DNA of 64,000 nt, taken from the IMG/VR virus record IMGVR_UViG_3300028829_003739, positions 1 to 64,000 of that record; one strand, given 5' to 3'. Within the stretch, counting starts at the first letter, position 1; every line of letters starts with the position of its first letter. The position numbers were made by a program, and so were the translations under genes. This document shows positions 1 to 63,100 of this stretch, in pieces. This DNA comes from a virus. The notes beneath the pieces were generated by a model. It was not told where the DNA came from. It did not search any database and saw only the letters and a program-made list of their open reading frames with translations.

Positions 1-67
1 AGTAAAGTATTTGCAGGTCTGCACCTATTCTATCTATTATAAGATAGTTGCCCTACAGCGGGACTTG

Positions 68-97
68 AAAAAAGAAACACCCGTTTTTCAGGGTGTT
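68..97 (-). terminator. Hairpin terminator of the leftmost minus-strand gene
   Basis: On the minus strand a 7-bp stem (AACACCC / GGGTGTT, plus-strand 91-97 and 76-82) encloses an 8-nt loop and is followed by a T-rich tail (TCTTTTTT). It begins a few bases after the stop codon of the gene at 104-514. Positions 1-67 hold only short inverted repeats (for example TGCAG-GT-CTGCA) and no gene. Confidence 0.75.
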
Positions 98-103
98 ACT
101 TTA

Positions 104-514
104 TTAAAGGTCTGAAACGTCAGATGATTCATCAGTTTCAAATGGTACTTCTTCCTCAGATGTAGCTTGAGGTGCAGGCGTACTACTCGGCATGTTAAGA
201 CCTAGTTTCGCGAGCATAGCTTCTGCTACGATCTTCTCTACGTCAATGCCTAACGCTTTAGCATTTGCTATTTCACGTTGTTGAGCACTGATGTCAATGA
301 ACCAATTACCCTTTGAGGATACTTTAAGCTCGCCATCAGGACTGCTAAACTTAGTGAAATACAAAGGCATTCCCGTTTTATCACAGTGCTTAAGGAACGC
401 GCCTTTAGACTCTTCATATTCTGCTAACTCTTCTTTAGGTCCGTTAATAGTATAAACGAACATTTGTACACCGTTAGCATTAGTGTATTCTGACTTGTAA
501 GTTGCTTGTAGCAT
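104..514 (-). CDS. Small protein with acidic C-terminal tail, possible DNA-metabolism accessory
   Basis: A 136-residue protein of unknown function. The N-terminal two thirds look like a compact mixed alpha/beta fold (segments VQMFVYTINGP, PLYFTKF and GNWFIDISAQQ), followed by a helix. The last 30 residues are a Ser/Pro/Glu linker with the acidic string SEEEVPF and an end rich in Asp and Ser. Such a flexible acidic tail containing a PF pair recalls single-stranded-DNA-binding proteins, and related sequences occur in replication regions of Bacteroidota phages from memory; neither point proves function. It is the last gene of the minus block in the window, with its own upstream CACTCC motif (548-565) and downstream terminator (68-97). 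The ATG at 514 is the only sensible start. Confidence 0.8.
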   Translation of the reverse strand: MLQATYKSEYTNANGVQMFVYTINGPKEELAEYEESKGAFLKHCDKTGMPLYFTKFSSPDGELKVSSKGNWFIDISAQQREIANAKALGIDVEKIVAEAMLAKLGLNMPSSTPAPQATSEEEVPFETDESSDVSDL

Positions 515-547
515 GTTATTACAGTTTTAATGATTAATAAATAATTT

Positions 548-565
548 AAGTAAAGAAGGAGTGAT
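548..565 (-). promoter_or_regulatory. CACTCCTTC upstream motif, copy 1
   Basis: On the minus strand this reads ATCACTCCTTCTTTACTT, ending 33 nt before the ATG at 514. A TATAAT-like string directly precedes it. It is one of four near-identical copies, each between a terminator and the next start codon, so a promoter or leader element is likely. Confidence 0.6.
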
Positions 566-601
566 TATATCAGAAACGGAGTGGATGATAGTAATTAAAG
601 A

Positions 602-617
602 ATCAGCGTCAGCTGAT
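602..617. repeat. Short inverted repeat
   Basis: ATCAGC-GTCA-GCTGAT, a 6-bp stem with a 4-nt loop in the gap between the minus-strand genes at 661-1017 and 104-514. It lies just after the terminator and about 40 bp upstream of the CACTCC motif. No T-tract follows, so an operator is more plausible than a terminator. Confidence 0.35.
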
Positions 618-627
618 ACCTAATAGG

Positions 628-653
628 AAAAAAAACAAGGACACAAGGCCCTT
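628..653 (-). terminator. Hairpin terminator after the SSB-tail protein gene
   Basis: On the minus strand AAGGGC and GTCCTT form a 6-bp stem (one G-T pair) with a 5-nt loop, followed after TG by a run of eight T. It starts 8 bases after the stop codon of the gene at 661-1017. Confidence 0.75.
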
Positions 654-660
654 ATCTTTA

Positions 661-1017
661 TTAGAACGGAAAATCATTATCAGCAGGAGGTAATGCCTGT
701 ACTATTATCTCAGGCTCCTGATCTTCTACCTTACCTAGCAAGTCTACCAATGCTTCAATAACGCAGTCAAGCTTATTACCGTTGATAGAAGGATACTCCC
801 TAGCAAAATCACGCATCACGTTAGGTTTAGTGTGATACATGAAATTGTTGTGATGACCACCTGCTACATCTAATAGCTGTGATACATGAATCCAAAACCC
901 TTTAGGATTATTCTTTGTGCAAAGTAACAGGAACTTGTTCCCTGTTTCTTTCACAGTGTACATACCTTTTCTTTTGGTAGTATGTACTTTAATACCATTA
1001 TATTTAGAACTATTCAT
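661..1017 (-). CDS. Small protein ending in an SSB-like C-terminal tip (DNDFPF)
   Basis: A 118-residue protein without a recognised domain. The N-terminal half is basic with several beta-type segments (YTVKETGNKFLLLCT), the second half is mostly helical, and a Pro-rich linker leads to the last residues PPADNDFPF. That end closely matches the acidic-plus-PF tip by which bacterial single-stranded-DNA-binding proteins (E. coli SSB ends DDDIPF) recruit replication and repair enzymes. The tip is seen directly; a role in ssDNA binding or in hijacking host SSB partners is inference. It is a single-gene unit with its own CACTCC motif (1032-1048) and terminator (628-653). The start at 1017 is the first ATG after that motif. 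Confidence 0.82.
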   Translation of the reverse strand: MNSSKYNGIKVHTTKRKGMYTVKETGNKFLLLCTKNNPKGFWIHVSQLLDVAGGHHNNFMYHTKPNVMRDFAREYPSINGNKLDCVIEALVDLLGKVEDQEPEIIVQALPPADNDFPF

Positions 1018-1031
1018 AGGACATAAATTTT

Positions 1032-1048
1032 ATGTAAAGAAGGAGTGA
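1032..1048 (-). promoter_or_regulatory. CACTCCTTC upstream motif, copy 2
   Basis: On the minus strand TCACTCCTTCTTTACAT ends 14 nt upstream of the ATG at 1017. It sits directly downstream of the T-tract of the preceding terminator (1051-1088). Confidence 0.6.
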
Positions 1049-1050
1049 AT

Positions 1051-1088
1051 AAAAAAAGAAAATAGAATGAGGATTAACCCCATTCTAT
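1051..1088 (-). terminator. Hairpin terminator overlapping the end of the 72-aa gene
   Basis: On the minus strand ATAGAATG (1088-1081) pairs with CATTCTAT (1069-1062), an 8-bp perfect stem, followed by TTTCTTTTTTT. The TAA stop codon of the gene (1076-1074) lies in the loop, so coding sequence and terminator overlap. Confidence 0.8.
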
Positions 1089-1292
1089 GTGTTCAGCATG
1101 ATATATCTCATATACCGCAATAGCTAACTTGTTAAGTCTTCTATTTTCTTTTGTATTGAGATATTTAACACCTACAAATGTGGTGTCAAAATTATCTTTA
1201 TCTATTCTTAAAGCTTCATGATCTAAACCTAACTGCGATTTCAAGTTACTGATGTCTGACATAGCTACTTGAGTTGATGATAAATTTTCCAT
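1074..1292 (-). CDS. Small hypothetical protein (72 aa)
   Basis: Unknown function. I place the start at the ATG at 1292 (MENLSSTQVAMSDI), not at the upstream ATG at 1343, because the longer version would run through the CACTCC motif (1302-1321) that precedes the other genes of this block at a similar distance. The product is soluble and charged with a helical C-terminal half (RRLNKLAIAVYEIYHAEHIEW). It forms a one-gene unit with its own motif and a terminator overlapping the stop codon. No domain is recognised. Confidence 0.65.
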   Translation of the reverse strand: MENLSSTQVAMSDISNLKSQLGLDHEALRIDKDNFDTTFVGVKYLNTKENRRLNKLAIAVYEIYHAEHIEWG

Positions 1293-1301
1293 AGTTCTAT
1301 T

Positions 1302-1321
1302 TAAGATATAGAAGGAGTGAT
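1302..1321 (-). promoter_or_regulatory. CACTCCTTC upstream motif, copy 3
   Basis: On the minus strand ATCACTCCTTCTATATCTTA, ending 9 nt before the ATG at 1292. The 11-nt core is identical to copies 1 and 4; the 3' half diverges. It follows the terminator at 1328-1360 by 6 nt. Confidence 0.55.
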
Positions 1322-1327
1322 CATTAC

Positions 1328-1360
1328 AAAACATATAGACCATTAAGGCCTATATGTTTT
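1328..1360 (-). terminator. Perfect 11-bp hairpin at the end of the three-gene minus unit
   Basis: AAAACATATAG (1328-1338) and CTATATGTTTT (1350-1360) are perfect complements around an 11-nt loop. The TAG stop of the gene at 1350-1568 lies in one arm. The stem supplies its own T-run, so it can act on either strand; the gene layout argues for the minus strand. Confidence 0.65.
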
Positions 1361-1568
1361 CATGAGCATTGATGACTACATCATACATAGCTTCCAGATC
1401 TCTGAACTCAGCTAATACTTCATAGTCCTCCACTTGTAAAAGAGCTTTCTTTAGCTCATACAGTGCATCAAACTCTCTGAATCTATCTTCTTCAGAGAGT
1501 ACTTGAGTTGAAAGTGCCAACATAGATTCTTCCACTATGTCCAGCACACGTTTCTTTATATCATTCAT
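1350..1568 (-). CDS. Small acidic helical protein (72 aa)
   Basis: An acidic, almost wholly helical 72-residue protein (MNDIKKRVLDIVEESMLALS; many Glu and Leu). No domain is recognised. It is the third gene of a three-gene minus unit (1931 to 1350), starting 5 nt after the stop of its upstream neighbour, and its stop codon is embedded in the terminator stem. Small charged early proteins of this sort in phages are often host-interaction factors, but nothing here shows that. Confidence 0.7.
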   Translation of the reverse strand: MNDIKKRVLDIVEESMLALSTQVLSEEDRFREFDALYELKKALLQVEDYEVLAEFRDLEAMYDVVINAHENI

Positions 1569-1572
1569 GATA

Positions 1573-1752
1573 CTAGAATTTACTGATTATTTTATTAACA
1601 GCACGGTTTCTCACAATGTTTGTGTATTGAAACCTATTGTACTGAGGAAATTCATTAAGTGCTTTGTCTAACGCATGCCACTTACTACACGCGATTATAG
1701 TTAGCCTGTATCTATTATCGGCTACTATAATATATTGTCTTGTATCTTCCAT
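1573..1752 (-). CDS. Small hypothetical protein (59 aa)
   Basis: The preferred start is the ATG at 1752 (MEDTRQYIIVADNRYRLTII), two bases after the TAG of the upstream gene (1757-1755). A longer reading from 1800 would overlap the membrane-protein gene by about 45 bases and is less likely. The product is basic, with a beta-like N-terminus and helix, and Arg/Lys/Asn-rich C-terminus (NIVRNRAVNKIISKF). Function unknown. Middle gene of the three-gene minus unit. Confidence 0.65.
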   Translation of the reverse strand: MEDTRQYIIVADNRYRLTIIACSKWHALDKALNEFPQYNRFQYTNIVRNRAVNKIISKF

Positions 1753-1754
1753 AA

Positions 1755-1931
1755 CTATTTTCCGTAAGAGTGATTCTTGTATGCAACAATTAGTAAGCAT
1801 ACAATAAATGTAGGAATCAATAACGCAACTGTTACCTCAACAGATAACATCATCATTGCCGTTAATATAGTAGAAGACAACACACTGATTGCAAGTGTGA
1901 CCAAGATAAAATTCAAGAAGTTCTTTTTCAT
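1755..1931 (-). CDS. Small two-helix membrane protein (58 aa)
   Basis: A short gene reading MKKNFLNFILVTLAISVLSS at its start. It has two hydrophobic stretches, about residues 4-30 and 33-51, joined by a short turn with one Glu, and a polar tail (AYKNHSYGK). A two-span inner-membrane microprotein is the natural reading; phage proteins of this shape include superinfection-exclusion factors and holins, but no family is recognised. It is the first gene of the three-gene minus unit, 25 nt downstream of the CACTCC motif at 1957-1974, and its stop is followed two bases later by the next ATG. Confidence 0.7.
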   Translation of the reverse strand: MKKNFLNFILVTLAISVLSSTILTAMMMLSVEVTVALLIPTFIVCLLIVAYKNHSYGK

Positions 1932-1956
1932 AACATAAGATTTAGATTAAACATTT

Positions 1957-1974
1957 AAGTAAAGAAGGAGTGAT
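1957..1974 (-). promoter_or_regulatory. CACTCCTTC upstream motif, copy 4
   Basis: On the minus strand ATCACTCCTTCTTTACTT, identical over 18 bases to copy 1 (548-565), ending 25 nt before the ATG at 1931. It marks the left side of the divergent control region. Confidence 0.6.
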
Positions 1975-2007
1975 TGTTGCTTGCAACTAGACAAATATAT
2001 CTTAAAT

Positions 2008-2023
2008 AAAAAGCATGCTTTTT
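2008..2023. repeat. Perfect 16-bp palindrome in the divergent control region
   Basis: AAAAAGCATGCTTTTT is its own reverse complement. It lies between the minus operon starting at 1931 and the plus operon starting at 2219. The 244-base gap also contains a run of six G (about 2067-2072) and a long T-run (about 2082-2091). A dyad operator or bidirectional terminator is possible; no gene is seen in the gap. Confidence 0.5.
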
Positions 2024-2170
2024 TCTAGACTATTTGACATTTTAAAAAAGACCATGACTTTGCTAGGGGGGTACTTTACTTTTTTTTTGAAGCCGGGATT
2101 TGTTTTATAAGGAGTCCCTATTCTCACTATTACAAAACTTTTGAGATACCGTAGATAGCAAACGTGAGTA

Positions 2171-2189
2171 TAATTTGTTATATTATACC
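2171..2189 (+). promoter_or_regulatory. AT-rich promoter-like element of the 2219-3971 operon
   Basis: TAATTTGTTATATTATACC, about 30 nt upstream of the ATG at 2219. It belongs to the family of elements with consensus near AAATTTAGTATATTATAT found ahead of most plus-strand units. Confidence 0.5.
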
Positions 2190-2218
2190 AGGAACAAGAT
2201 TCCTTACAAGAATTAGTA

Positions 2219-2500
2219 ATGGTGAAAAGAGATTTGATTATGAAACATGGTATTGAGAAAGTGTGGGACTTATTTTTGCACAATAATTTTTTTAAGATTA
2301 TGCTATTTGCATGGTTTATTGTATTAGGGGGAATTTTAGAAGTGTATTTAGATAACTTATTTAGTGCTATTGTTCTTTATATAGGATGTTTTGGTTTATT
2401 AGGGTATGCACTTCTTTTTGTATTAGGGGGTATTTTGTTTATGATAATAGAGGAGATAGAGTACTACAAGGTCAAAAAAAATAAAAAAAAAGAAAAATAG
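2219..2500 (+). CDS. Two-span membrane protein with basic tail
   Basis: A 93-residue protein with hydrophobic segments at about residues 24-44 and 47-77, a short amphipathic N-terminus, and a Lys-rich cytoplasmic-type C-terminus (VKKNKKKEK). The start is ATG 2219; the in-frame ATG at 2240 (MKHGIEK) is an alternative. It is the first gene of a four-gene plus operon, and its TAG stop abuts the ATG of the next gene. Function unknown. Size and topology would fit a holin, but the endolysin is 6 kb away and a better lysis candidate lies beside it, so I do not call it one. Confidence 0.7.
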   Translation: MVKRDLIMKHGIEKVWDLFLHNNFFKIMLFAWFIVLGGILEVYLDNLFSAIVLYIGCFGLLGYALLFVLGGILFMIIEEIEYYKVKKNKKKEK

Positions 2501-3067
2501 ATGGATTACTTCTTTCCTCCAAATAAGCATAGATCAGCAAGTTGGGATATATCTTTTATATATGGTAAGAAGAAGAGTATTACCTGGAGTATGTATCTAG
2601 ATGATATGATACTAAGACAGGTTCCTATTAATATTGCAGGGCAAGAACAAATAAATAAGCTTGGAGGAATTACTGACGGATTAATCAGGCACTGGAATGA
2701 ATTTAGATTCGGCTGGAGAGAAACACCTGATCAGATGATAGACATCTTTTGTTACTTTTATATAAACGGTAAAAGACCTTCCTTGCCTGAATTAGAAGAT
2801 AAGTATAAGTTAGTTACTATAGATCCTAATAAACCTAAAGATTTTGAGTTGTCTATTATGGCTACAGAAGATACAGTAAGATTTCAATATACAAATATTG
2901 AAAAGGGTTATAACATAGAAACAATTCTTCCGTATAGCTTTGGAAATAACTTTAGCTGGGTTTTGCAACCTTATATCGGTGGACGAGAAACATATCCTGA
3001 AGTGTTAGCACTTTCATCAGAAGTTAAAAATAATGTCGGTAAAATTTTTACTATATTTGGCCTATGA
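2501..3067 (+). CDS. Conserved-type hypothetical protein (188 aa)
   Basis: No domain recognised. The sequence is rich in aromatic residues (Trp in ITWSMYLDD, IRHWNEFRFGWRE and FSWVLQPY) and looks mostly beta-structured and globular. It has neither a signal peptide nor a membrane segment. It directly abuts the membrane-protein gene upstream, and its TGA stop overlaps the ATG of the MazG-like gene (3064), so the four genes 2219-3971 are translationally coupled. A metabolic or takeover role is suggested only by the MazG neighbour. Confidence 0.75.
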   Translation: MDYFFPPNKHRSASWDISFIYGKKKSITWSMYLDDMILRQVPINIAGQEQINKLGGITDGLIRHWNEFRFGWRETPDQMIDIFCYFYINGKRPSLPELEDKYKLVTIDPNKPKDFELSIMATEDTVRFQYTNIEKGYNIETILPYSFGNNFSWVLQPYIGGRETYPEVLALSSEVKNNVGKIFTIFGL

Positions 3068-3492
3068 GCTACATAGATAAACTTAATAAGAAATACAGTG
3101 AAATGTTCGGTCAGATAAAATGTAGCTGTGATTTATATGCTGACTTCTGTAGATGCACGAATAATAACAATTTTAAAAACCAAAAGATGACAGATTTAAT
3201 TAGCAAGGTAGCTGTTTGGGCTAAAGAAAAAGGATTAATCAAAGAAGAGAATAGTTCTAAACAATTTTGTAAAGTAGCCGAAGAAGTAGGTGAAGTAGCA
3301 GCAGCCCTAGCAAGAGGCGATAAAGAAATGCTTAAAGATGGTATTGGTGACGTAGTTGTTACATTGATTATCTTAGCTGAGCAGCAGGGTCTTAATATTA
3401 CAGAATGTTTAGATGCTGCATGGCAAGAGATTAAAGACAGAAAAGGTAAAACTATTAACGGAGCATTTATAAAAGAAGAAGATTTAGCCTAA
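3064..3492 (+). CDS. MazG-like nucleotide pyrophosphohydrolase
   Basis: A 142-residue protein of the all-alpha NTP pyrophosphohydrolase (MazG/dUTPase-like) superfamily. These enzymes hydrolyse NTPs or dNTPs to NMP and pyrophosphate using Mg2+ bound by acidic residues. The signature EEVGE is at residues 73-77 and the second metal-binding pair is in KDGIGDVV (D92, D96). The N-terminal 40 residues are an extra segment with Cys residues (CSCDLY, FCRC) that could hold a metal ion. Phage MazG homologues are thought to adjust nucleotide or alarmone pools during infection; which applies here is unknown. The ATG overlaps the preceding stop (ATGA) and the stop overlaps the next start (TAATG). Confidence 0.88.
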   Translation: MSYIDKLNKKYSEMFGQIKCSCDLYADFCRCTNNNNFKNQKMTDLISKVAVWAKEKGLIKEENSSKQFCKVAEEVGEVAAALARGDKEMLKDGIGDVVVTLIILAEQQGLNITECLDAAWQEIKDRKGKTINGAFIKEEDLA

Positions 3493-3971
3493 TGGATTCT
3501 AGCCAAGCACGAGTGTACCATAGAGGATATTCTATAGATCTATTTGGAATAGAGTATGATATTCTTGTTACTACTGAAGATATAGAGTTTGCAGCAATGA
3601 CTGTAGATATGATGCATAAAGGCTTGGATTTAGATACAGGTGACATTGTAGGTAAGACAACATATGCAATGAAGATATCTCATCCTGATGTAGGGTTTAG
3701 ATTATTTGGATTGTTAAACCTAGATTTAGATAAACAAGACTCATTAGAAAACACTATAGATTTAATGGGACATATTACTAAGCTTTCTACTAAACTTTCT
3801 TGGTTTATGCTTGAAGTCTTAGAAATAAAAATAGACGAATACAATAATAACCTACATGGTTTAATTGTAAGTCAAATATTTAAAGATATTTATAGTTTTA
3901 TAGAAAGTGTATTGGATGAGGGAGAAAAAGAAGAAGATGATGACTCAGATTCTGACATTAACGATCTCTAA
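3492..3971 (+). CDS. Hypothetical protein with highly acidic C-terminal tail
   Basis: A 159-residue protein of unknown function, last gene of the 2219-3971 operon, starting in a TAATG overlap with the MazG-like gene. Residues 1-140 appear globular, beta then alpha. The last 18 residues are an acidic tail (EGEKEEDDDSDSDINDL). The end resembles that of the minus-strand protein at 104-514 (SDVSDL). Acidic tails in small phage proteins often mimic DNA or bind basic partners; that is a possibility only. A terminator follows at 4048-4084. Confidence 0.75.
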   Translation: MDSSQARVYHRGYSIDLFGIEYDILVTTEDIEFAAMTVDMMHKGLDLDTGDIVGKTTYAMKISHPDVGFRLFGLLNLDLDKQDSLENTIDLMGHITKLSTKLSWFMLEVLEIKIDEYNNNLHGLIVSQIFKDIYSFIESVLDEGEKEEDDDSDSDINDL

Positions 3972-3994
3972 TTAAATATATTATATTATATTTG
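3971..3994 (+). promoter_or_regulatory. AT-rich promoter-like element in a convergent gap
   Basis: ATTAAATATATTATATTATA followed by TTTG, resembling the elements upstream of plus-strand operons. It begins at the stop codon of the 3492-3971 gene. No plus-strand gene follows; the next plus feature is the terminator at 4048-4084. Confidence 0.35.
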
Positions 3995-4047
3995 TAGTAA
4001 GTAAAACGTTTATGTTAAGGGTGCCATAAATTTATAGCTTAATCAAT

Positions 4048-4084
4048 AAAAGGGATCTAATTTATTAGGTTCCTTTTGTTTTTT
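4048..4084 (+). terminator. Strong terminator between convergent transcription units
   Basis: AAAAGGGATCTAA and TTAGGTTCCTTTT form a 13-bp stem (two G-T pairs) with a TTTA loop, followed by G and six T. It ends the 2219-3971 plus operon. The stop codon of the minus gene (4059-4057) lies within its left arm, so the hairpin is shared by both strands. Confidence 0.85.
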
Positions 4085-4305
4085 AGACCATAATCCATCT
4101 CATCTTCGTAATAAGCTTCTGTTTTACTACCTAATCTAGCTGGAACAACGTTTTTTAAATTCCTAAACTGACACTTAAGAAACTGTGCGGATAGTCCAAA
4201 TTTAGCGCATATATCCTTTAAATAGACCTCATCACGCATCATTTTAAGTAATTCTAGTCTTTCTGTTGGTGTCAGTATGTGATTGTACTTATAATCTGAA
4301 TGCAT
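4057..4305 (-). CDS. Small helix-turn-helix-like protein
   Basis: An 82-residue protein. About residues 11-50 (LTPTERLELLKMMRDE ... LKDICAKFGLSAQFLKCQF) have the spacing of a helix-turn-helix: a first helix, then DICAKFGLS as helix-turn and SAQFLKCQFRNL as recognition helix. This suggests a DNA-binding protein, perhaps a regulator or an adaptor for the phosphoesterase. It is the downstream gene of a two-gene minus island, starting two bases after the phosphoesterase stop, and ends inside the terminator stem. The HTH call rests on pattern only. Confidence 0.7.
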   Translation of the reverse strand: MHSDYKYNHILTPTERLELLKMMRDEVYLKDICAKFGLSAQFLKCQFRNLKNVVPARLGSKTEAYYEDEMDYGLKNKRNLIN

Positions 4306-4307
4306 AT

Positions 4308-5405
4308 TTATTTAAAATAGTGTGTAATATGAGCAATACGCCCATCATGCTTTGAATGTACAAAACCTTCTACAGCTACTTGTGATTTAAATTGTTTTTC
4401 TGCATGCCATAGGTCAGCATTTGACGGAGAACGCAAGTAAGTAACATTTACTCCTACAAAATCCTTACCTGATTTAAACTGATGTTTTATTTGATGATGT
4501 AAATGATGCAGATAGGCGTATCTAAATTTAGTATTAGCCCACATACTAGGTTCTTCCTGAGCCATAATTAAAGGTACTGTATCCATTTTACCTTTATCTC
4601 CATGTTCAAATTCAAGCATATTATCAAAGTACTGATAATACTTACGATACTTAGGGGATACATCAAACTTAACATTCTTGTTCTTTCTAAACCATGACTG
4701 TAATGAATCTGCTAAAAAGCATCCTGACATCAGGTCGTGATTACTAGGACAATGTATAACATCTACATTTGCATATTGTAAACAGGTTTCTATACACTTT
4801 ACATAACATCTCCTGGCAATAAGGAATGCTTCCCACCAGTGAACATCTGTGTCTTGAGGAGTACCTGAAGTTGTTGTTTTAAATATAGAATCTGTATTAA
4901 GGACATCATTACCTACTATAAATAGAATCTTTTCAATATCAAATCCTTTTACTTTTTCTAATAAAGCTTCTGTGCCTTTAATAGCACGTTCAACAGCAAT
5001 CTCACTATTATATTCTGCTCCAGTTAATTTAGCGGAAGCATATTTATTAATATGTAAGTCTGCAATATCAATAACAAATAAATGACCGTCTGATTTTTTC
5101 TTTCTTGTGATTTTTGGATATACCGGAGAGTACTCATCCATTTCAGCTATAATATCCTTTCTTATATCACTTATAGACTTGTGAGTAGGTATAGCTTCTA
5201 TAGAGAATTGTTGTGATTTATACCAGTATCTTTTTATTGAATCATATCCAATTCCTACTCTATTTATTTCTTCATGTAAAAGGCTTTCATGTTCATCGGA
5301 GCCTTCTATATATCCGTTTCTTAAATCTTTTAGGAATTTTTGTTCTTGCTTATTAACCCAGATCCTTATGGATCTTTTACGGTACGGTTTCTGATTTTTA
5401 CTCAT
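4308..5405 (-). CDS. Calcineurin-like metallophosphoesterase (Mre11/SbcD type)
   Basis: A 365-residue protein with the ordered motifs of a two-metal phosphoesterase: DLH at residues 116-118, GND at 165-167, SNHD at 221-224 (usually GNHD, so the Gly is replaced by Ser), EHGD around 267-270 and HHLHH at 300-304. Metal-ligand residues are all present, so it should be active. Members cleave phosphodiesters in DNA, RNA or nucleotides; Mre11/SbcD relatives process DNA ends. The first 110 residues are an N-terminal extension with a basic start (KPYRKRSIRIWVNKQEQKF) that may bind nucleic acid. It is transcribed leftward from an AT-rich promoter-like element at 5415-5440, with the HTH-like gene immediately downstream. 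This pair is the only minus-strand island in the plus block. Confidence 0.85.
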   Translation of the reverse strand: MSKNQKPYRKRSIRIWVNKQEQKFLKDLRNGYIEGSDEHESLLHEEINRVGIGYDSIKRYWYKSQQFSIEAIPTHKSISDIRKDIIAEMDEYSPVYPKITRKKKSDGHLFVIDIADLHINKYASAKLTGAEYNSEIAVERAIKGTEALLEKVKGFDIEKILFIVGNDVLNTDSIFKTTTSGTPQDTDVHWWEAFLIARRCYVKCIETCLQYANVDVIHCPSNHDLMSGCFLADSLQSWFRKNKNVKFDVSPKYRKYYQYFDNMLEFEHGDKGKMDTVPLIMAQEEPSMWANTKFRYAYLHHLHHQIKHQFKSGKDFVGVNVTYLRSPSNADLWHAEKQFKSQVAVEGFVHSKHDGRIAHITHYFK

Positions 5406-5414
5406 CTTAGGGTT

Positions 5415-5440
5415 CTTATATAATAATATAGTGAAAATTA
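5415..5440 (-). promoter_or_regulatory. AT-rich promoter-like element of the minus-strand island
   Basis: On the minus strand TAATTTTCACTATATTATTA followed by TATAAG, about 10-15 nt upstream of the ATG at 5405. It matches the plus-strand AT-rich elements, which supports these as true strand-specific signals. Confidence 0.55.
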
Positions 5441-5500
5441 TTATGTTAAATGAGCATTTTGTTTTAAAGATATATTATTTATACTTTTTGTATTAGCTTT

Positions 5501-5523
5501 ATTTTTAGTATATTATATTACAT
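5501..5523 (+). promoter_or_regulatory. AT-rich promoter-like element of the fibre/lysis operon
   Basis: TTTTTAGTATATTATATTAC, about 55 nt upstream of the ATG at 5577. With the minus element at 5415-5440 it forms a divergent pair in the 171-base gap 5406-5576, which otherwise shows no gene. Confidence 0.6.
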
Positions 5524-5576
5524 AGATAATCTTCAACAGAGGTTCTATAAAACGTTTTATATATAAAATTTATGAT

Positions 5577-6890
5577 ATGAGTCTAGGCAATGGAAATCCT
5601 AAATATGGAGATAAAGGCAGTAACTTTAGTTACGAATATGCTGTATTAAAATTATTAAACGCGATTAAAGATAATAGCGGGGGCGGTGGCGGAGGCGGTG
5701 ACGCTTCTGCAGCTAATCAGCAAACTCAAATTACTGAAGCACTAGCTGCAAATACAGAATTAACAGCTATTAAAACAGCAATTGAAACATTTGACGCACA
5801 AAATGGAGCCGATTTAACTAGTTTAATTAGTGCATTTAATACATTTGCTAATCAAAATAACATTGATATAGTAGATGTTAAAGCTGCTATTCAAACTTTT
5901 GATGCACAGAATGGAACTGATTTAAGTGCTATACTTACAGCATTACAAAACGGAGATCAATTAGCTAACATAAGATCTAATACTGCAAAAGACGGTTCAG
6001 GAACAGCGTTATATCCTTTACTTGATGCAGATGGTCACTTACAAGTAGATGTACTCTCAGGAGGAGCAGGAGGAGCTTCTAATGTGATTGATTCTAATAA
6101 CAGTACTGCAACACCATTAGGTGCTGGAGCAGTCTTTACAGGTACAGGTACTGATGTATCTGCATATAACTCTGTAACAATACAATTATTTGCTGATCAA
6201 GATTCTGCTGCAGACGGTATGTCATTTCAGTTTTCACCAGATAATGTTAACTGGGATGAACAAAATGATTATAACCTAGAGATTACAGTATCTGAAACAA
6301 GAAGATTTCAATTTCCTGTAACAGCTCAGTACTTTAGAGTTGTTTATACAAATGGAGGAGTTGCTCAGACAGCATTTAGAGTACAGACAATTCTTCATAC
6401 ATCAGATGTACTTACAAGTATACATAGATTAGATACAGGACTTACTAATGATAGATCTGTAACAGTAACTAAATCAGTTATTGCTGGAGAAACATCAGCA
6501 GGAGGGGGAGCTTTTGTTAATGTGAAAGTAGCACCTTCTGGGTCATTAGAAACAAATGCTAGTCAAGATACACATGATAATCTTAATGCAAATGCTAATA
6601 TTCAAGTAGGAGATGTTGATGTATCTGGAGCTAATCCAGTTCCTACTACTATGGCTAGCACAACAATAACACCTAATTTAGTAAGAGCAACTAGTGCTGG
6701 AACAATTGCTGCAGGAGCAAGATCATTTAGTATTGCAAATATAGGAGCAGCGGATGCTGACATCTTAGGTGGTACTAATAACCTTAAGGTAGGCGAAGTA
6801 GTAAACTTTGATGCAGGACTGAACAATACATATGGATCCGTAGCCTATGATGCTACAGGAACTGAATTATTAATTACATATAATAACTAA
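5577..6890 (+). CDS. Putative virion fibre / surface protein with coiled-coil repeats
   Basis: A 437-residue protein. After a short N-terminal segment comes a Gly-rich hinge (seven Gly at about residues 35-41). An Ala/Thr/Gln-rich helical region follows, with a repeated unit seen as ETFDAQNGADL and QTFDAQNGTDL, typical of trimeric coiled coils. The C-terminal 280 residues are beta-rich, including a segment (FQFSPDNVNWDE ... QYFRVVYTNGG) of the kind found in phage receptor-binding or head-decoration proteins. A fibre attached to the virion is the best reading. It is the first gene of a plus unit with two more fibre-type genes (6893, 7289). It could bind the tail or the capsid; the sequence does not decide. 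Confidence 0.7.
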   Translation: MSLGNGNPKYGDKGSNFSYEYAVLKLLNAIKDNSGGGGGGGDASAANQQTQITEALAANTELTAIKTAIETFDAQNGADLTSLISAFNTFANQNNIDIVDVKAAIQTFDAQNGTDLSAILTALQNGDQLANIRSNTAKDGSGTALYPLLDADGHLQVDVLSGGAGGASNVIDSNNSTATPLGAGAVFTGTGTDVSAYNSVTIQLFADQDSAADGMSFQFSPDNVNWDEQNDYNLEITVSETRRFQFPVTAQYFRVVYTNGGVAQTAFRVQTILHTSDVLTSIHRLDTGLTNDRSVTVTKSVIAGETSAGGGAFVNVKVAPSGSLETNASQDTHDNLNANANIQVGDVDVSGANPVPTTMASTTITPNLVRATSAGTIAAGARSFSIANIGAADADILGGTNNLKVGEVVNFDAGLNNTYGSVAYDATGTELLITYNN

Positions 6891-17176: not shown

Positions 17177-17199
17177 TAATTGTGTATATTAATATTAGT
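17177..17199 (+). promoter_or_regulatory. AT-rich promoter-like element before scaffold and capsid genes
   Basis: ATAATTGTGTATATTAATAT, about 30 nt before the ATG at 17224. It is a weaker match to the AT-rich family, but sits in the only sizeable gap between portal and capsid genes. A 6-bp hairpin (AAATCT/AGATTT, 17152-17166) just upstream may end the portal transcript. Confidence 0.4.
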
Positions 17200-21443: not shown

Positions 21444-21464
21444 AAATTTAGTATATTATTATAC
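21444..21464 (+). promoter_or_regulatory. AT-rich promoter-like element
   Basis: AAATTTAGTATATTATTATA (then C), a near-consensus member of the AT-rich family, immediately after the stop codon at 21442. A hairpin (21476-21510) lies between it and the next ATG at 21548. Confidence 0.6.
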
Positions 21465-22276: not shown

Positions 22277-22300
22277 AAATTTTTACTATATTATATGTAT
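22277..22300 (+). promoter_or_regulatory. AT-rich promoter-like element
   Basis: AATTTTTACTATATTATATG, about 35 nt upstream of the ATG at 22332, in the 79-base gap between the connector gene and the 464-residue structural gene. Good match to the family consensus. Confidence 0.6.
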
Positions 22301-55100: not shown

Positions 55101-57198
55101 ATATTATACTGATCCGGGACAAGGTGGTGAATATGAAGTTGCAAAAACTTCACCCTTGTATAAAAAAGCAGTAGACGTAATTGGTACATACTACGATATA
55201 AAAGGAAACATTAGCTTAAGTGAGTTTAAAGAAAACTATAATATATACAAGTTAGCTTCTCGTAAAAAGAAAGAAGGTGATAACAGAACTTATGATGATA
55301 TTGCAGCACAGTATGGTTTTGACCCTAAAGCAGAAACAGCTAAAGTTCCTTTAACTAAAGTACTACAGTCTATAATAGATAGTGAGTTTTCTGACACTAG
55401 AGAAAAAGAATTAGCTAAAATATTATTAGCTAAAGCATCTCCAGAAGAATATGTTACATTTTCAAAATCAGCAGGCTTACCTTCTAAATATACTGTAGCA
55501 GAACAAAATACGGTTAATGCTAAATTTAGTTCTGATAATTACAAGGAAGGTAAAATAAACAGCCCTATTGAATATTTTATTCTTAATGGTGAAATACAAA
55601 GACGATTAAACATAGCATTAGCAGAAGATAAAGACTTTAGAGCAGAGCTAGAAGGATTAATGAAAGAAGCTCAAGCTGAGTGGAATAAATTATCTCCTGA
55701 AGAAAAAGCTATGTATGGTGGTGAAATGTTTGCATTAGAAAATATTGAATCATTTGCAGTAGATGCTATGACAAATAAAAGAGTTCAAGCATTTTTAACT
55801 ACTGTAAAAACAAATCAGACTTTTGAAAATAGTTTATGGAAAAAGTTTGTTGATGCTGTCATTAATAACATGTCTAAAATATTAAATATAGCTGCCGTAA
55901 ATGGTACTGTACTTAATGCAGCTTTAGATGTAATTACTACTAAGATAGATCCATCAGGAACAGCTAAGGCTAAAGAAGCTGCTGAAACTACAGGGACTAC
56001 TGAAAAAGTCACACGAGATATTTCTATTAATGATTTAAAAATTAATCATCCTGAACTTCTTAATGATCTTATAGAATCTTTTATAGAGTATAATGATAAA
56101 CAAGTTGCTTTAGGAGAGGATAGTATAATACCAGAAGGAATTAATAAAGCTGATATAGCAGGACTTGAAGTATTTAAAAACTATATTTCTAATAGAGAGT
56201 TTACTTCTCCAGAAGAAGTCTTTGAAAAATACAATGAAGAATTAGGTGCGCAAACAGAAACTAGCACAAATGCTACTTTTACACCTACAACTCCTTACGG
56301 TACAGAAACAGGTCCAGAAATGACTACAAGCACAGAATCAGTGAATCAAGGTTTAACAACAGAAGCTCCTAAATCAAAACCTTCTACAGAAGTTAAATTT
56401 GTAGCACCTAAGTCTGGAATTGTAACTAGAGCAGTCAAAACTAAACTAAATGAACTTGGATACAATGAAGTTGAAATTCAAGGAATGGGTAATGCACAAG
56501 CTTACGCTATTGCTAATGAAGGCTTAACAAAAGAACAGAGAGCACAGAATGATGCACAAATTGATACAGAAGATAGCGCATTAGAAGAAGAACGTCAAGC
56601 AGCAAGAGAAGAGATTGAAAGTATTATCGACAAAGCTAAAAATTACAGTGAGTATGAAAACATGGTAAAGCAAATTAATGATATTATAGCTGACGCTTCA
56701 AATCCTTTGTTTTCATTATCTCAATTAAGTATAGATCAGCTTGATGAATTAATGAATATAAAGCGTAAATCATTAGCAGAAGATGTTAATTTTGATGATC
56801 TTGTAATCGGTGAAGTTGTAATGATACAACGAACAAGCAAGGCAGGTAAAAAATACCTTGTATCTGTTAAAGTTTCTGCAAAAGACTCTGACAGCATTAC
56901 ATTAGAATATTTAAATCCTGATAAGAAAGGAAAAATAAATAGCTTTAAAGTTATGAAAGATAAAATCAATACCGAGATTAAATATAAATATTCAGAAGCA
57001 CTTGAAAATTCTGATTTAGATAATGCTGATGATGCAGTATCAGAAGAAGAAGTAGAAAATGCAAAAGAAACTATTGATAAGTTAGAAGATCTTGAAGATA
57101 GTGATACAGTAAATCAAGATAGAGAAGACTCTAAAAACAAGACGCAAGAAGAAATAGATGCTGCGTTTATTGAAGAAATTAATAATAACTGTGAATAA
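52177..57198 (+). CDS. Giant virion cargo protein with hydrophobic domain (1,673 aa)
   Basis: A 1,673-residue protein of a family typical of crAss-like phages. After a disordered start, residues about 145-210 contain the recognisable SGQWWELAKLGFSDMIGIS. Residues about 209-265 are long and hydrophobic (YTLGIIGEMVVEEAALLGVE, ALAAMAVPVTLGAS), probably able to enter membranes. Residues about 480-560 (SSDNFAEGLQEVGQEAISGW) follow, then a long helical middle. Near 1412-1458 lies a small helical domain and near 1540-1600 a beta domain (LVIGEVVMIQRTSKAGKKYL). The acidic end is Glu-rich. It probably crosses the cell envelope with the DNA or helps the polymerase enter. Starts and ends in TAATG overlaps. 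Confidence 0.75.
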   Translation: MAEEQESLGFDLGAELTPPKISTSNPLDVPIPEPSYNKQVKQLEQLDVNLKNEEYQNLLDDVETGNLPNPQVEITDPLSIDAARKQIQNSFTYGPENAKDPFGLAQTLDGDFRDPKKQNTFYKRYKEHGAYEDLGFSPYRDNEEYYNERTSTFGDFGRASGQWWELAKLGFSDMIGISDMDNLAGARKYAEASAIGSSTKDGLGAFGVNTFLNSGYTLGIIGEMVVEEAALLGVEALAAMAVPVTLGASASVNVAAGARMAYTAQKGTRRIAKAWKQAAKMRKTMDAMQDANKARSFFGKSMQFLNPFENTTAFIKGVGDMGDIGKLTKTVRGAGGFIRDMRGIRGTYNEAILEANMVQDDMHSAMLDDFRAKHGRAPNEAEAQEMLSSIKKAGASTAIWNSALIGVTNKFTLGPLLRPMNRGIGMGMFDLAKTGRKFVQQSYKKGTPEAYKLLSRNMFKRGYELVRNPRALIGKSLLYSSDNFAEGLQEVGQEAISGWQKDYHTAQFQGNEVRGGYYSYLADNLVEQVSPQGFETFMSGFLMQKFVAPVTSAGSALARPDNYSSTKDFFTNRNKWREDRAENDVKAQEIVDNLNKFYKNPENYLSKDLMSAVRQGEYATMMADAEKDGDVKSYYDVKDSQMFDNILLAIQTGRLDSMVGQLEGLKDLTNEETQQEYGMDQSTFHDMIDKSVKRAKHIENSYNGLQKKFNNPVNFKQYKYGSPERAEAFKNHQAWEAALGDIAFNSYSFTRSLERAESILGKVSESTGFKNTPLNEITSIFSVGEVQKELQLLSAEISSIEQSGKVTPELGKQVKEKKDKQKKLTTLVASLKALEDVTENENAEDVYEVAKKAYEDYMTFIAKKNGDHAHKDKLEESFNELIDYYKLKGRSESMVERVNQMLDPENFINIQRRLKDTYDQAMAMRYDEIKKSYKEYMKGSTLDNKLLNALADIGVFLDVEELKKLKEEGIFPDALYYTDPGQGGEYEVAKTSPLYKKAVDVIGTYYDIKGNISLSEFKENYNIYKLASRKKKEGDNRTYDDIAAQYGFDPKAETAKVPLTKVLQSIIDSEFSDTREKELAKILLAKASPEEYVTFSKSAGLPSKYTVAEQNTVNAKFSSDNYKEGKINSPIEYFILNGEIQRRLNIALAEDKDFRAELEGLMKEAQAEWNKLSPEEKAMYGGEMFALENIESFAVDAMTNKRVQAFLTTVKTNQTFENSLWKKFVDAVINNMSKILNIAAVNGTVLNAALDVITTKIDPSGTAKAKEAAETTGTTEKVTRDISINDLKINHPELLNDLIESFIEYNDKQVALGEDSIIPEGINKADIAGLEVFKNYISNREFTSPEEVFEKYNEELGAQTETSTNATFTPTTPYGTETGPEMTTSTESVNQGLTTEAPKSKPSTEVKFVAPKSGIVTRAVKTKLNELGYNEVEIQGMGNAQAYAIANEGLTKEQRAQNDAQIDTEDSALEEERQAAREEIESIIDKAKNYSEYENMVKQINDIIADASNPLFSLSQLSIDQLDELMNIKRKSLAEDVNFDDLVIGEVVMIQRTSKAGKKYLVSVKVSAKDSDSITLEYLNPDKKGKINSFKVMKDKINTEIKYKYSEALENSDLDNADDAVSEEEVENAKETIDKLEDLEDSDTVNQDREDSKNKTQEEIDAAFIEEINNNCE

Positions 57199-60100
57199 TG
57201 GCAAGTTGTAGTGTAAATCCAAAAGTACTAAGAGCTTTAAGAGTAAAGGTTTTTAGTGAGATAGATAGTAAAGTAGCAGCTAAAGAATCATTTGATATTA
57301 ATTCATACATGAAAGACATGTATGATTTTATATTTAATGCAAGCAATGACAAAGCATTAGCACTTGATGCCGTAAGGATGGTGCCTTTATTTGTTGTTCA
57401 GCTAGCATCATTAGACAGAACAGTAAGAAAATTAGATGGTGTTGATTTAACAAAATTAGCAGACATGACTGATGACTTACTTGATAATGAGTTATCAGCT
57501 ACTGAAAAAATTCTAGGATTAGCACAAGGAGAAGAAGTTAAAAAAAAATTAAAACATCTTAATCAAGATAATTCTGTAGAACCTGCTAAAGTAAAATCTA
57601 AAAAAGAAGTAAATCCAGACTTTAAAGGTAAAATTGTTTACATAACAATGGGATCTGGTAAATCTGAATTTGCAGAAAACTATGAAGGTGTTATTGACGC
57701 AGATAGAATTAAAGTGCGTGTAATAGGAAGAACTGAATGGGGAATAAATAATCCTAAGAAAGATCAAGAAACTGATGCTGAATACATTGGTAGATATTCT
57801 TATGACCCTTCAGTATTAAGCACTGCAGAAGTAAATAAACAAACTTTAGATTTATTAAAAGAATATGCTAATAGAGGTTTTACTGTATTAACAGGTACTA
57901 AAAAACTTATACCTGAAGCTGATATAGTTATTATTACATCTCAAGGTGTCGCTAATAGAATAGAAGACCCTGTACAACAAGCTGCTTTTAAACAAGATGA
58001 AGCTAGATATACATCTAGTAAAAAGAACGTTATCTATTCTGATAAGTTTGCAGAAGATATTCTTTTTAAATCTTTGCCTGTAGAAGAGGTTGCAGAAGAA
58101 GTAGTAGATGATATCACTACACCTGCAGCACCTAAACAAACTATAGCTGGTATTAGACCTGTACAAAGTATATCTTTAAAAGAAGCTAATGAAGAAAGTA
58201 TATCTGCTATACCAGGTACATTTAGATCTACAAACCCTATTGAATCTCCAGGTAATGACTTTAGCTTTAAAGTACAACGTAAACTACTTACGTTGCTAGA
58301 AGAGCAAGGTGTATCTGATATGTCAGAGGTTGAAAGCGAAATGGAAAAAGGATTTTACATTTCAATTAAAAGATCTAAAGATGTAAGTTCTGATATAAAC
58401 TCTGATACAACACCTTTTGTATATGTTATTACTGATAAAAACGGTGCAATTACAGAATTTAATGATGATTTAACTCCTGTTATTATAGGGGGTAAACCTG
58501 CATATTTTAATATTCAAAAGTATGACGGTAAAAATTCTAAAGGTCAGTTATCAAAAAGAGATAGCACATTTGTAAGCAAGCTTTTAAAAAACTTAATGTC
58601 CTTAACAGGAATGTCAGCAACCGCAGCTAAAGAAGTTAGAGGTCCAGAAGCAGCTGAAATGCAAAAGGTATTAGACTATATTAAAGCTAATCCTAATGCA
58701 AACATAGTTTATAATATTACAGGTGGTTCTAAAGGCATTATAGTTGCATCTACAGAAAAAAAACAGAGAACATCTCCTAGTCAATTTAAAAATGTTACTG
58801 GAGAGAAGTTTGCAATAGGTCAAATTTTAAAGCCATCACAAATATTAGATCAAAAAGATCCTGTTAAAAATGTTGTTTATTATACTAATGATCAATTAGG
58901 CGGTGTCTATATTGAATTAAAGAGAGAACCATATAGAGAAATAAATAATGGAGTTTCTATACGAAGCACAATTGATTTAATTGTAGAAGATATTTACGAT
59001 GAGAAAGGTAAGTTATTAAACGGATATGATAAAATAGCAGAGTTACAAAAAACTCTTAATGTAAATAACGTTAACGGTATTAAAATTACAGTAGATAGAG
59101 ATACTAAAGAATTTACTCTTTCATTAAATGATTGGAGTGATCAAAACTTTGGAGTTACAACTGTCTTTGATTTATCAAATGATGACGGTAAAATGCAAGC
59201 AAGAATAGCTCTTCAGAACTATCTAGAAGCAAACGTTTACAAAAAGAATTATCCTGTTTCAGAAGCAAACTTTAACAACAAGGCTTATGAAGAAAATAAA
59301 AACTTATACCGTGTTGAACTAAATGAAGAAACTGGTAGACGAGTATTACTAGATAGCGGTGTATCTTATATAGACTATTTAAAAAACAATATGTCTTTGA
59401 CTGCTGTTCCAAATACAGAGTCAGGGAATATCGTAACAAGTAATTCATTCTTTACTCTACAATTATCAGATGATTCTATAACAGAAGTATTTGAAGAAAA
59501 GAAAAAAGAGCAAGAGAAAGAAGAAGCAGTTGTTGAAATTAAAAAAGAAATAGATACAACAACTCAAGAGCCATCTAATGATGTGTCAGATGACGAATTA
59601 TTTAGAACATTAGATGTAAGAAATAGAAGTAAGCAAGCAACACAAAAACAAATAGAAGACGCTGAAGCTTGGTATAACCAAAGTGAATTAAGTAAGTACA
59701 TTCCTTTTAAAGGTATGTTTGATCTTGTAAATAGTAAGAATCCTGATGCTGTTGCATCATGGGCTACAAGTGGTATTACTTTATTTAAAGGTTCTGACTT
59801 CTCTGATTTATATCATGAAGCTTGGCATGGATTTACACAAACGTTTATGACTAAGGATCAAAAGAAATCTTTGTATTCTGAAGTACGTAAAAAGAGTGGT
59901 AATTTTATGGACCATAATGGTAACAGAGTAAGATTTACAAAAGCTACAGATTTACAAATAGAAGAGTATTTAGCAGAGTCATTTAGAAATTACATGTTAT
60001 CTGATCAAAAAGCTTTAAAAGGATCTCCTAAACAAAACTCTTTTTTCAGAAAGATCTATAACATTTTAAAATCTTTATTTTCTGATTCTTCATATAAAGA

Positions 60101-63100
60101 TGTTGTTACTGATGAGTCAGTTGACTACAAAGTAAATGAGTTATTTAACAAACTAAGAGTTGGTGATATAAAAGAGTATAGCTTCTCTTTACAAAATGCA
60201 TCTTTTAACTCATTAAACAAAGGTCCTAAAGCTATTGAAACAAGGACTGATGGTATTACTGAACTTAACTTTCAAGATGCCTTAGATGGTGTAAACATGA
60301 TAGATTACTTTATATCAGAGTTTATCACATTTGAAAACGCAGCTCTTAATCCAGAACAAAGAGAAGAATATATTAAGCATGCTAAAGTATCTAAAGAAGA
60401 TATTAATAACATGACTAAAGCAGAAAAGCTAGCATACAAAAATATGTCTGATAGCTTTATGCCTACAAAATATTCTGGTTTAAGTAAAGTATTAAAAGAT
60501 CCTACTGCAGCATATAAACATGCTAAAAGCAGATTAGAAGATGTATTAGTAGAACTTAATGATCAAAAGAAAGCTGCTACTGATCCTGGACAGATTGCTT
60601 CTTTGCAAAATAAGATGCAAACTATAGAATGGATGATATCTGAGTTTGGTAATACTGACAATATTAAAAGAAATCTTACAGAGTCTAATGAAGATGTAAA
60701 AGGTATGATTGGGTATCATATGAAGCATACCAAGTTTTATCAAGAACAACTAGAAGAAATTGACTTTGAAAATGTAAACGAAGATGACATTACAGCTAAT
60801 TCACAAAGATCTGGTATTGATAGAAAAGGTAATGAATCTTCTCATGTAGATGATGCTAAACCTGAAGTATTATATTTATTTCAATCTATTGTTGATAGAA
60901 GTAAGCTTAACAAATACGGTATACCTGTAAAAGCAAGCTGGCGTGAAAACTTTGTAAAAGTGATTAGAGCTACTGAGAATGCACAAACATTACAAGAATG
61001 GGCACCTAAGTTTCTTGAACTAGCTAAAAAGGATCCTCAAATTAGACAAATTATTGAAAAAATTGGTAGTCCTTTAAGTACAAATGCTAATACTCCTGAA
61101 ACAAACATGTGGACAAACATTTGGCAAACATTTAATAAAAGTAGAGTTGGTTTTATACAAGCAACAACTACTACATCTATTAATGAAGAAGGAGATCTTG
61201 TTGTAAATACTAATGTTGGTCAAGCATTAACAGATGAAGGTAAGCTATCAAGAAATTGGGATACTTTATTTCAAAGTGGTAATTCTATAGATCAAACATA
61301 CGTTTTATACGATGATCAAGGAGCATATGTAAATATGCCTAAAGTATTAAAAGCATTTCCTAATCTTAATTCAGCTAAAGAAAATTCATTTGAATTCTTT
61401 AGAGCATTGGGTATGAGCTTATCTGACATACCAGAAATAAAAACCGCACTTAAAAAAGGTGACTATAGAGTAGATAAATATTACGAATACATAACTGATG
61501 CAAAGAATCAAAAATATAAAGTCAGAAAACCTTCAGATATAACTTTTGATTTATCAAAGATTTATAAAAAGCTTTTAAACTTAGAAGGAGAATACTCTAA
61601 CTTGTTTACAAACTTTGCAAGGTTAAATGCTGAAAACAATGTTCAATATGAACATTCATTAAATAACTTTTTAACTACAGTTACAAATGCTATAAACAAC
61701 GTAAACTCATATGATGAGTTAATAGCTTTACCTTATATGGAAAGGTATAACGTTGATACAAATCCTTTTATTAAAAACTCAGTATGGTTTAACTCCATCT
61801 TTGATATGAATAATGGAGGAATAAAAAGGCAGGACGTAAGTTTAGAGTTATACAATATAGCTGGTAGTAAAGTAATAGAAGAAGGAGTTGCTTCTGCAAA
61901 AGCTGATGAGTCAACTAAGTTTAATTTAGATGTTAATTTAATTTTATCAGGTTATCCTGAATTACCAAGACACTCTGATAAAAGTACTTCTTACGGTATT
62001 AGAATTAACGGAAAACTATACGGAGGACAAACAGCTGCTGATACCTATGTATCTATAAATGATATTGCTCAAGGTGATACTCAAATGTATAGTAAGCTTA
62101 ACGAAAGAATATTACCTATACTAGAAGCAGAGTTATCTAGAATTAGAACTTTAAATAGTTATTCTGATGATATTATGTATGATCACTCTTATGTTAAGGA
62201 TGGTCAAGAAATTCAAATTTTTGATGATATCTTAAGTGAATCAACTGTTAAGAAATTAAAAGCTTTAGCTATATCAAAAGAAGGTTATAAAACAGCATTA
62301 GATACTAATCAAGATAATATTGTTGATACTATACAAGAAGAAGTACAGGAATATTTTGAATGGCTAATAAATAAAGATGGTAAAACACCTATGAATGAAA
62401 TAGGTATATTATCTGATAACTTAAGAAAAACTATTTTAAGTAAACTTATTGCTAATAAACAACCTACAGATAGACAAAGTATTTTAGATGTTGCTTCTAA
62501 AGGATATGTAATCAACGGCTGGTTAAACAATGTAGAATCTACTATGTTTTTATATGGAGATCCTGCACAATATGATCATGCAAAACAAGGTTTTCATAAA
62601 CGTAATGCTGGAACAGGATCTACTGGTACAATATACCGTACTGATGATATTATAGCAGGTGTAATAGATAAATTAAATGGTATAAGAAGTTATGCTAAAA
62701 CAATAGGTGCTGAACCAAATAAATTTACAGGTTCAATGAATACAGCTGTTGTAGAAGATAATGAAATAGCATCTATATACTATAAAGAGCTTGTAAAATC
62801 ATTAGGTAGCGAAGAAAAAGCTGCAGATTATTTAAAGCAAAATGAAGGAGATGCTCAAGGTCTTATTACTATTGATGCATATAGAGAGTTAAAAGTTTCT
62901 CAAGGTACTTGGACTAATGATCATCAGCTTATGTACTCAAAAGTAATCGAAGGAAAAAGTATTGCAGCTGAAGATGTAGAATCTTTCTTTCCTGTTATCA
63001 AAGGACAGTACTGGGGGCAAATAGCTACAGATGGTAAGTTACCATTAAATGCATTCCATAAATACTCATTGTACCCATTAATTCCTACAGTAATTAAAGG

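Follow-up and report, generated by a model that had tools for sequence, protein, structure and literature searches.

Likely early promoters in a crAss-related phage and their phage-specific counterparts in relatives

Four copies of a short motif, TCACTCCTTC, are spaced among the putative early genes of a crAss-related phage, where they likely act as early promoters. They lie in the window, by which we mean the whole stretch of DNA analyzed, positions 1-64,000 of a linear record of 68,252 bases (labeled G000; its relatives are labeled G001, G002, and so on). The same layout is found in 11 other related records, comprising ten distinct phages, with phage-specific sequences. The four copies are probably the promoters of the earliest genes, read by a phage-specific factor for which the giant virion RNA polymerase (vRNAP) is the most likely candidate.

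The terminase and capsid proteins encoded in the window match crAss-like families, with identities to named phages of about 23-29%. Because these identities are low, we place the phage in a separate lineage, for which IMG/VR holds about 600 or more relatives; a megablast search of the first 20 kb of the window against phages gave no match. The homology of TerL, MCP, and the two-barrel vRNAP to those of crAss-like phages indicates that the phage is crAss-related. A search of GTDB contigs for a host returned one short contig from a Spirochaetia MAG, which was uninformative on the host. The vRNAP is encoded by an ORF that continues beyond the window to the end of the record. Its product matches the structure of the phi14:2 virion RNA polymerase (gp66, PDB 6VR4; E = 1.5e-21) and contains the conserved ADFDxDK motif. 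The phage encodes a vRNAP, and its presence in the virion is predicted by homology. In phi14:2, early transcription is rifampicin resistant, which has been ascribed to the vRNAP (PMC10136315).

The original prediction described four minus-strand copies of an 11-base core, two of them identical over 18 bases. We recovered four exact copies at 555-1973, all on the minus strand, although the shared core is 10 bases long. Alignment of the copies extends this core to about ATCACTCCTTCTTTACTTAAA, and copies 1 and 4, the two most alike, agree over about 23 bases (1953-1975 and 544-566) rather than 18. A search of both strands of the full record found no copy outside the early block, and the pattern TCACTCCTTCT gave 4 matches in the record, compared with 0.06 expected. 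This motif, which we call class A, ranked first in a de novo search for 10-mers shared among 22 upstream regions, and none of 150 dinucleotide shuffles gave a motif shared as widely. Over-representation is confined to regions upstream of early rather than late genes, with 4/4 copies in the early block and 28-50 nt between motif start and ATG. The block itself is presumed to be early from its position in the genome; the early genes of crAss001 form a separate block at one genome end (PMC8375218). A sigma-70 scan of positions 1-2300 found 12 sites against 9.6 expected, and an Rfam search of positions 1-6000 gave nothing above gathering scores.

Motifs alternate with genes and terminators in the order motif, g6-g5-g4, terminator, motif, g3, terminator, motif, g2, terminator(s), motif, g1, terminator (Table 1). 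Scanning both strands for terminators revealed 7 terminator-like sites, compared with 0.9 in shuffles. Copies 2, 3, and 4 come just after a terminator, as had been proposed for three of the four, and copy 1 lacks a preceding terminator because it opens the block. The genes starting at 1752 and 1568 (g5 and g4) have no exact motif copy and follow g6 in an operon. The early block runs off the left end of the linear record, and therefore further copies may exist.

TABLE 1 Features in the window. The starts used here for g5 and g3 lie downstream of those in the ORF list, which gives earlier ATGs.
Feature	Position	Strand	Details
Class-A copy 1	1953-1975 (core 1964-1973)	-	42 nt before ATG 1931; heads g6-g5-g4 operon
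Class-A copy 2	1300-1321 (core 1311-1320)	-	28 nt before ATG 1292 (g3); after terminator 1360-1328
Class-A copy 3	1027-1049 (core 1039-1048)	-	31 nt before ATG 1017 (g2); after terminator 1088-1062
Class-A copy 4	544-566 (core 555-564)	-	50 nt before ATG 514 (g1); after terminators 659-631 and 617-602
g6	1755-1931	-	58 aa; first early-block gene; no PHROGs or Pfam family match
g5	1573-1752	-	59 aa; no PHROGs match, Pfam matches sub-threshold only
g4	1350-1568	-	72 aa; no PHROGs or Pfam family match
g3	1074-1292	-	72 aa; no PHROGs or Pfam family match
g2	661-1017	-	118 aa; no PHROGs or Pfam family match
g1	104-514	-	136 aa; weak homologue (24%, tblastn) in motif-bearing early block of G002
Intrinsic terminator after g6-g5-g4 operon	1328-1360	-	Inverted repeat
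Intrinsic terminator after g3	1062-1088	-	Terminator scan
Two terminator-like hairpins after g2	602-659 (659-631, 617-602)	-	Terminator scan
Terminator after g1	76-97	-	Terminator scan; terminator-like on + strand too
Class-B motif before SbcD-like exonuclease gene	5424-5433	-	
Class-B (late) motif before structural block	5506-5515	+	
Class-B (late) motif	17183-17191	+	
Class-B (late) motif	21449-21458	+	
Class-B (late) motif	22284-22293	+	
Giant vRNAP ORF	57198-64000, on to record end 68252	+	About 3,685 codons in record

When the motif was sought in relatives, its architecture proved to be conserved and its sequence did not. The exact class-A motif was not found in the relatives examined; allowing one mismatch to TCACTCCTTC in 15 relatives gave scattered single matches and no arrays, and an exact 15-base motif matched 37 IMG/VR contigs with one copy each, as chance would produce. 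De novo searches, in contrast, revealed arrays in the equivalent place in the genome, where the early strand begins and runs divergently from the structural genes. The repeated sequences are AACCCCTTTTTT in G002 and G032 (7 copies each), ATCAGCC in G007 (3 copies), ATATCAACCTAC in G016 (9 copies), AAACAGCTCA in G018 (9 copies), TACCTCTTCTGAC in G019 (7 copies), TACTTCTTCTTAC in G037 (the same phage as G020) and G022 (8 and 10 copies), CARCTTYTATTG in G038 (12 copies by a 10-base core, 10 by a longer pattern), and AACTGCTC in G027 and G028 (4 copies each, with looser spacing). In addition, G039 has two copies of TACAGCWTYATACTA, which is akin to the G018 motif, and G005 has one copy resembling that of G007.

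The array motifs of G000, G016, G018, and G032 (0 shuffles) and G028 (1/150) passed a strict shuffle test (GC of at least 4, one mismatch). Those of G007, G019, G020, G022, and G027 did not pass, and these arrays depend on patterns that were longer or fitted by hand; in G002, a sequence other than the array motif was the most widely shared 10-mer. Because the records are related and the patterns were fitted after inspection, the pooled figures for the 12 records are a description and not independent tests: all of the copies (82/82) are on the early strand, with none on the other; motif starts lie a median of 40 nt before an ATG with an open frame (IQR, 34-43.5; 63 copies); a strong terminator ends at most 35 nt upstream of 46/82 copies, compared with 38/183 control starts (Fisher p = 3e-8); and the host-type sequence TAnnTTTG occurs near 3/82 copies, compared with 25/183 controls.

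Possession of a vRNAP does not by itself imply an array, because none was detected in G001, the closest long relative of the window (terminase, 74%), or in G003, G008, G010, and G017, and the phi14:2 and crAss001 genomes contained no repeated motif of the class-A kind. Several of these phages carry a vRNAP, among them G001, phi14:2, and crAss001, and they may have fewer promoters, more degenerate promoters, or another mechanism. In the Leptolyngbya phage Lbo-JY46, just a TAnnTTTG-type motif was found.

Comparison of close relatives revealed that the motif can change at all of its sites at once. The terminases of G018 and G019 are approximately 100% identical, and their DNA is 90-99% identical over about 45 kb; the main break in identity is the early block. 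Within this block, the terminators are conserved and several genes are orthologous (one pair at 84%, another at 42%), yet every motif copy differs, reading TAAACAGCTCATAACTA in G018 and TATACCTCTTCTAACTA in G019. Since independent change at every site is unlikely, a change in the factor that reads the motif would be the natural cause. The G019 contig stops before the vRNAP gene, with its last ORF down to 61% protein identity, and a search for a contig extending it to that gene found none. The vRNAPs of G018 and G039, two phages with similar motifs, are the most alike in their group (39%), a comparison that leaves aside G019, whose vRNAP lies outside the contig.

The late motif behaves differently. 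TTTWGTATATTAT (class B) precedes structural genes and is unchanged across much of the clade, with 30 exact copies in 9/17 clade records. All 30 are on the structural strand, and they include copies in both G018 and G019, so late genes retain their signal even as that of the early genes changes.

A second close pair, G037 and G017, shares 93% identity in the terminase, 97% in the capsid, and 81-93% in many replication proteins. The 45-kb module of vRNAP and cargo is hardly alignable in DNA between them, with 31-36% identity between the vRNAP proteins, and the early block is likewise hardly alignable. An array is present in G037 and none is detectable in G017; with one member lacking a detectable motif, this contrast is one of presence versus absence. 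In this pair, the early block and the vRNAP module have diverged together. Quite possibly, though short of probably, early promoter specificity is a swappable module, in which the whole promoter set and the vRNAP module switch together. If so, near-identical phages would carry mutually foreign (orthogonal) vRNAP-promoter pairs.

These observations suggest how the early block might be expressed. Each unit would consist of a motif, a leader of about 20-35 nt, a gene or small operon, and a terminator, and transcription would start again at the promoter just past the terminator of the preceding unit, making the early block a chain of short, separately started units. Because such units are closed by a terminator and reopened at a motif, transcription needs a promoter between each terminator and the next ATG, where the motif is the sole shared element. 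The reader would be a phage-specific factor, most plausibly the product of the giant RNA polymerase ORF at 57198-68252, which would travel in the virion and enter the cell along with the DNA; being injected, it could serve the very first genes. Late genes would use the different motif TTTWGTATATTAT. The promoter role put forward originally is supported by the layout in 11 other records, the restriction to one strand, the near-constant distance to the ATG, and the coupling to terminators. For its further suggestion, use by the injected RNA polymerase, the concerted switch and the joint divergence of the early block and the vRNAP module tip the balance in favor, and we regard it as somewhat the better bet.

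The layout would look the same if the sites were early promoters for the host RNA polymerase assisted by a phage-encoded or host alternative sigma factor or activator, and a switched phage activator could also account for the concerted change between G018 and G019. We nevertheless consider this unlikely, because the host-type element is found at so few motif sites, a factor that must first be synthesized could not serve the first-expressed genes unless it were injected, and it is the vRNAP module that co-diverges with the early block. It is improbable that the motifs are operator or silencer sites for a phage regulator, with the promoters elsewhere. Intergenic sites that are repeated, asymmetric, and oriented within one block do resemble mycobacteriophage stoperators, which are known asymmetric repressor sites (PMC9283540); against this, nothing else is shared between terminator and ATG, the early block alone contains the sites, and no gene for a repressor was identified.

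A signal in translation or in the mRNA leader, for example one that pairs with 16S rRNA or mimics it, would correspond to the post-transcriptional alternative offered in the original prediction, and it does not hold up well. The window copies lie close to the ATG and resemble the 3' end of 16S rRNA. At the equivalent place, however, relatives carry AAACAGCTCA, ATATCAACCTAC, or CAACTTTTATTG, and most relatives' sequences are unlike an anti-Shine-Dalgarno sequence; copies come after terminators, and a structured RNA of 105-110 nt that has no ORF follows one of the copies in G037/G020 and G022. This RNA has a long terminal stem and a predicted MFE of about -37 kcal/mol (z, -4.0 and -4.6); other ORF-less motif transcripts were not clearly stabler than shuffles when folded, and Rfam searches of the early blocks gave tRNAs alone above threshold. 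The resemblance of the window core to an anti-Shine-Dalgarno sequence therefore appears to be coincidental, and a leader signal is very improbable. We give almost no credence to a repeat for recombination or cassette shuffling that has no role in expression. Such a repeat would fit a hypervariable block that differs even among close phages, but it leaves unexplained the constant orientation and ATG spacing and the concerted replacement at conserved gene and terminator positions.

crAss-like phages, which deliver a giant RNA polymerase into the host cell, are very abundant. The literature searched yielded no description of the DNA recognized by a crAss-like vRNAP, a survey that is possibly incomplete and whose coverage did not extend to the main phi14:2 paper. 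Concerted switching of whole arrays between near-identical phages likewise had no earlier description there, as far as we found, while vRNAP promoter classes are already known from AR9, P23-45, and N4. The arrays provide compact candidate promoters for about ten phages, for several of which the cognate polymerase is known, and G018 and G019 together offer a natural swap that amounts to a ready-made experiment on specificity. Should this be confirmed, the arrays would flag early genes, often directed against host defenses, in many phages not yet cultured and would also provide an assortment of separate polymerase-promoter pairs.

Among known systems, the early promoters of the phiKZ and AR9 vRNAPs (AAATATATATTAT-N6-G) likewise form a repeated extended motif before early genes that is distinct from the late motif and attributed to an RNA polymerase that is injected (PMC5312081). 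Across phiKZ-related phages, the motifs are AT-rich and alike in kind (PMC5312081), whereas in the present lineage most phages have a motif rich in C or pyrimidines, and near-identical phages have different ones. In Thermus phage P23-45, a pre-early motif class is also assigned to a two-barrel virion RNA polymerase, and it is found in relatives with that polymerase and absent in those without it (PMC10770324); it differs in being AT-rich and backed by 14 mapped start sites (PMC10770324), while the starts here are predicted and the motif varies by phage. N4 also uses its virion RNA polymerase at early promoters, in which a GC-rich heptamer is enclosed by inverted repeats that fold into a hairpin (PMC4496689). 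The coding strand of the window core, TCACTCCTTCTTTACTTAAA, lacks G and so cannot form an N4-type stem, and no repeat pair folding within the window motif was found. The phages phi14:2 and crAss001 resemble the window phage in being crAss-like, with a homologous vRNAP and early genes divergent from the structural genes.

The Bacteroidota sigma-A promoter, with its -7 element TAnnTTTG, does not describe the sites, being rarer near motif copies than near controls, nor does a 16S-like leader, given the unrelated sequences in relatives. In mycobacteriophages, a ribosome-binding site is part of the start-associated sequences, and stoperators are bound by a repressor. Both the start-associated sequences of cluster K and the stoperators of cluster A (PMC9283540) are short asymmetric repeats, located at gene starts or between genes and oriented with transcription, as here. 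Unlike either, the sites described here follow terminators and occur in the early block only.

Two copies of the early motif, the phage-specific repeat regarded as a candidate promoter, flank a 105-110 nt structured RNA in early blocks of relatives. This RNA is near-identical between G020/G037 (two records of one phage) and G022, and it may be an early noncoding RNA.

Features in the window and in loci of related phages (L252, L253)
Feature	Location	Strand	Remark
Structured RNA without ORF	L252:3706-3815	+	Folding, z about -4 to -4.6
Structured RNA without ORF	L253:11901-11795	-	Folding, z about -4 to -4.6
MazG-type pyrophosphohydrolase gene	3064-3492	+	Near early block
AATCACTCTTAC	1752-1790	-	Directly ahead of g5
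Late-type motif TTTWGTATATTAT	5433	-	Also in many relatives
Late-type motif TTTWGTATATTAT	5506, 17183, 21449, 22284	+	Also in many relatives

The sequence preceding the small early gene g5 looks like a shortened early motif copy. It falls inside the coding end of g6, and the likeness may be due to chance.

In the related phages G003, G008, and G010 (loci L155-L160, L132-L137, and L138-L143), the early array was not found, and the G018 giant virion RNA polymerase was unmatched in a protein search (E 1e-5). Their RNA polymerase may have strongly diverged.

TTTWGTATATTAT stands upstream of structural genes, recurs across the clade, and differs from the Bacteroidota host type, TAnnTTTG. Upstream regions of Leptolyngbya phage Lbo-JY46 (PP438436; loci L166-L168) share TAACTTTG, a Bacteroidota-type -7 element. 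The host on record is a cyanobacterium, and given this element, that assignment may deserve a check.
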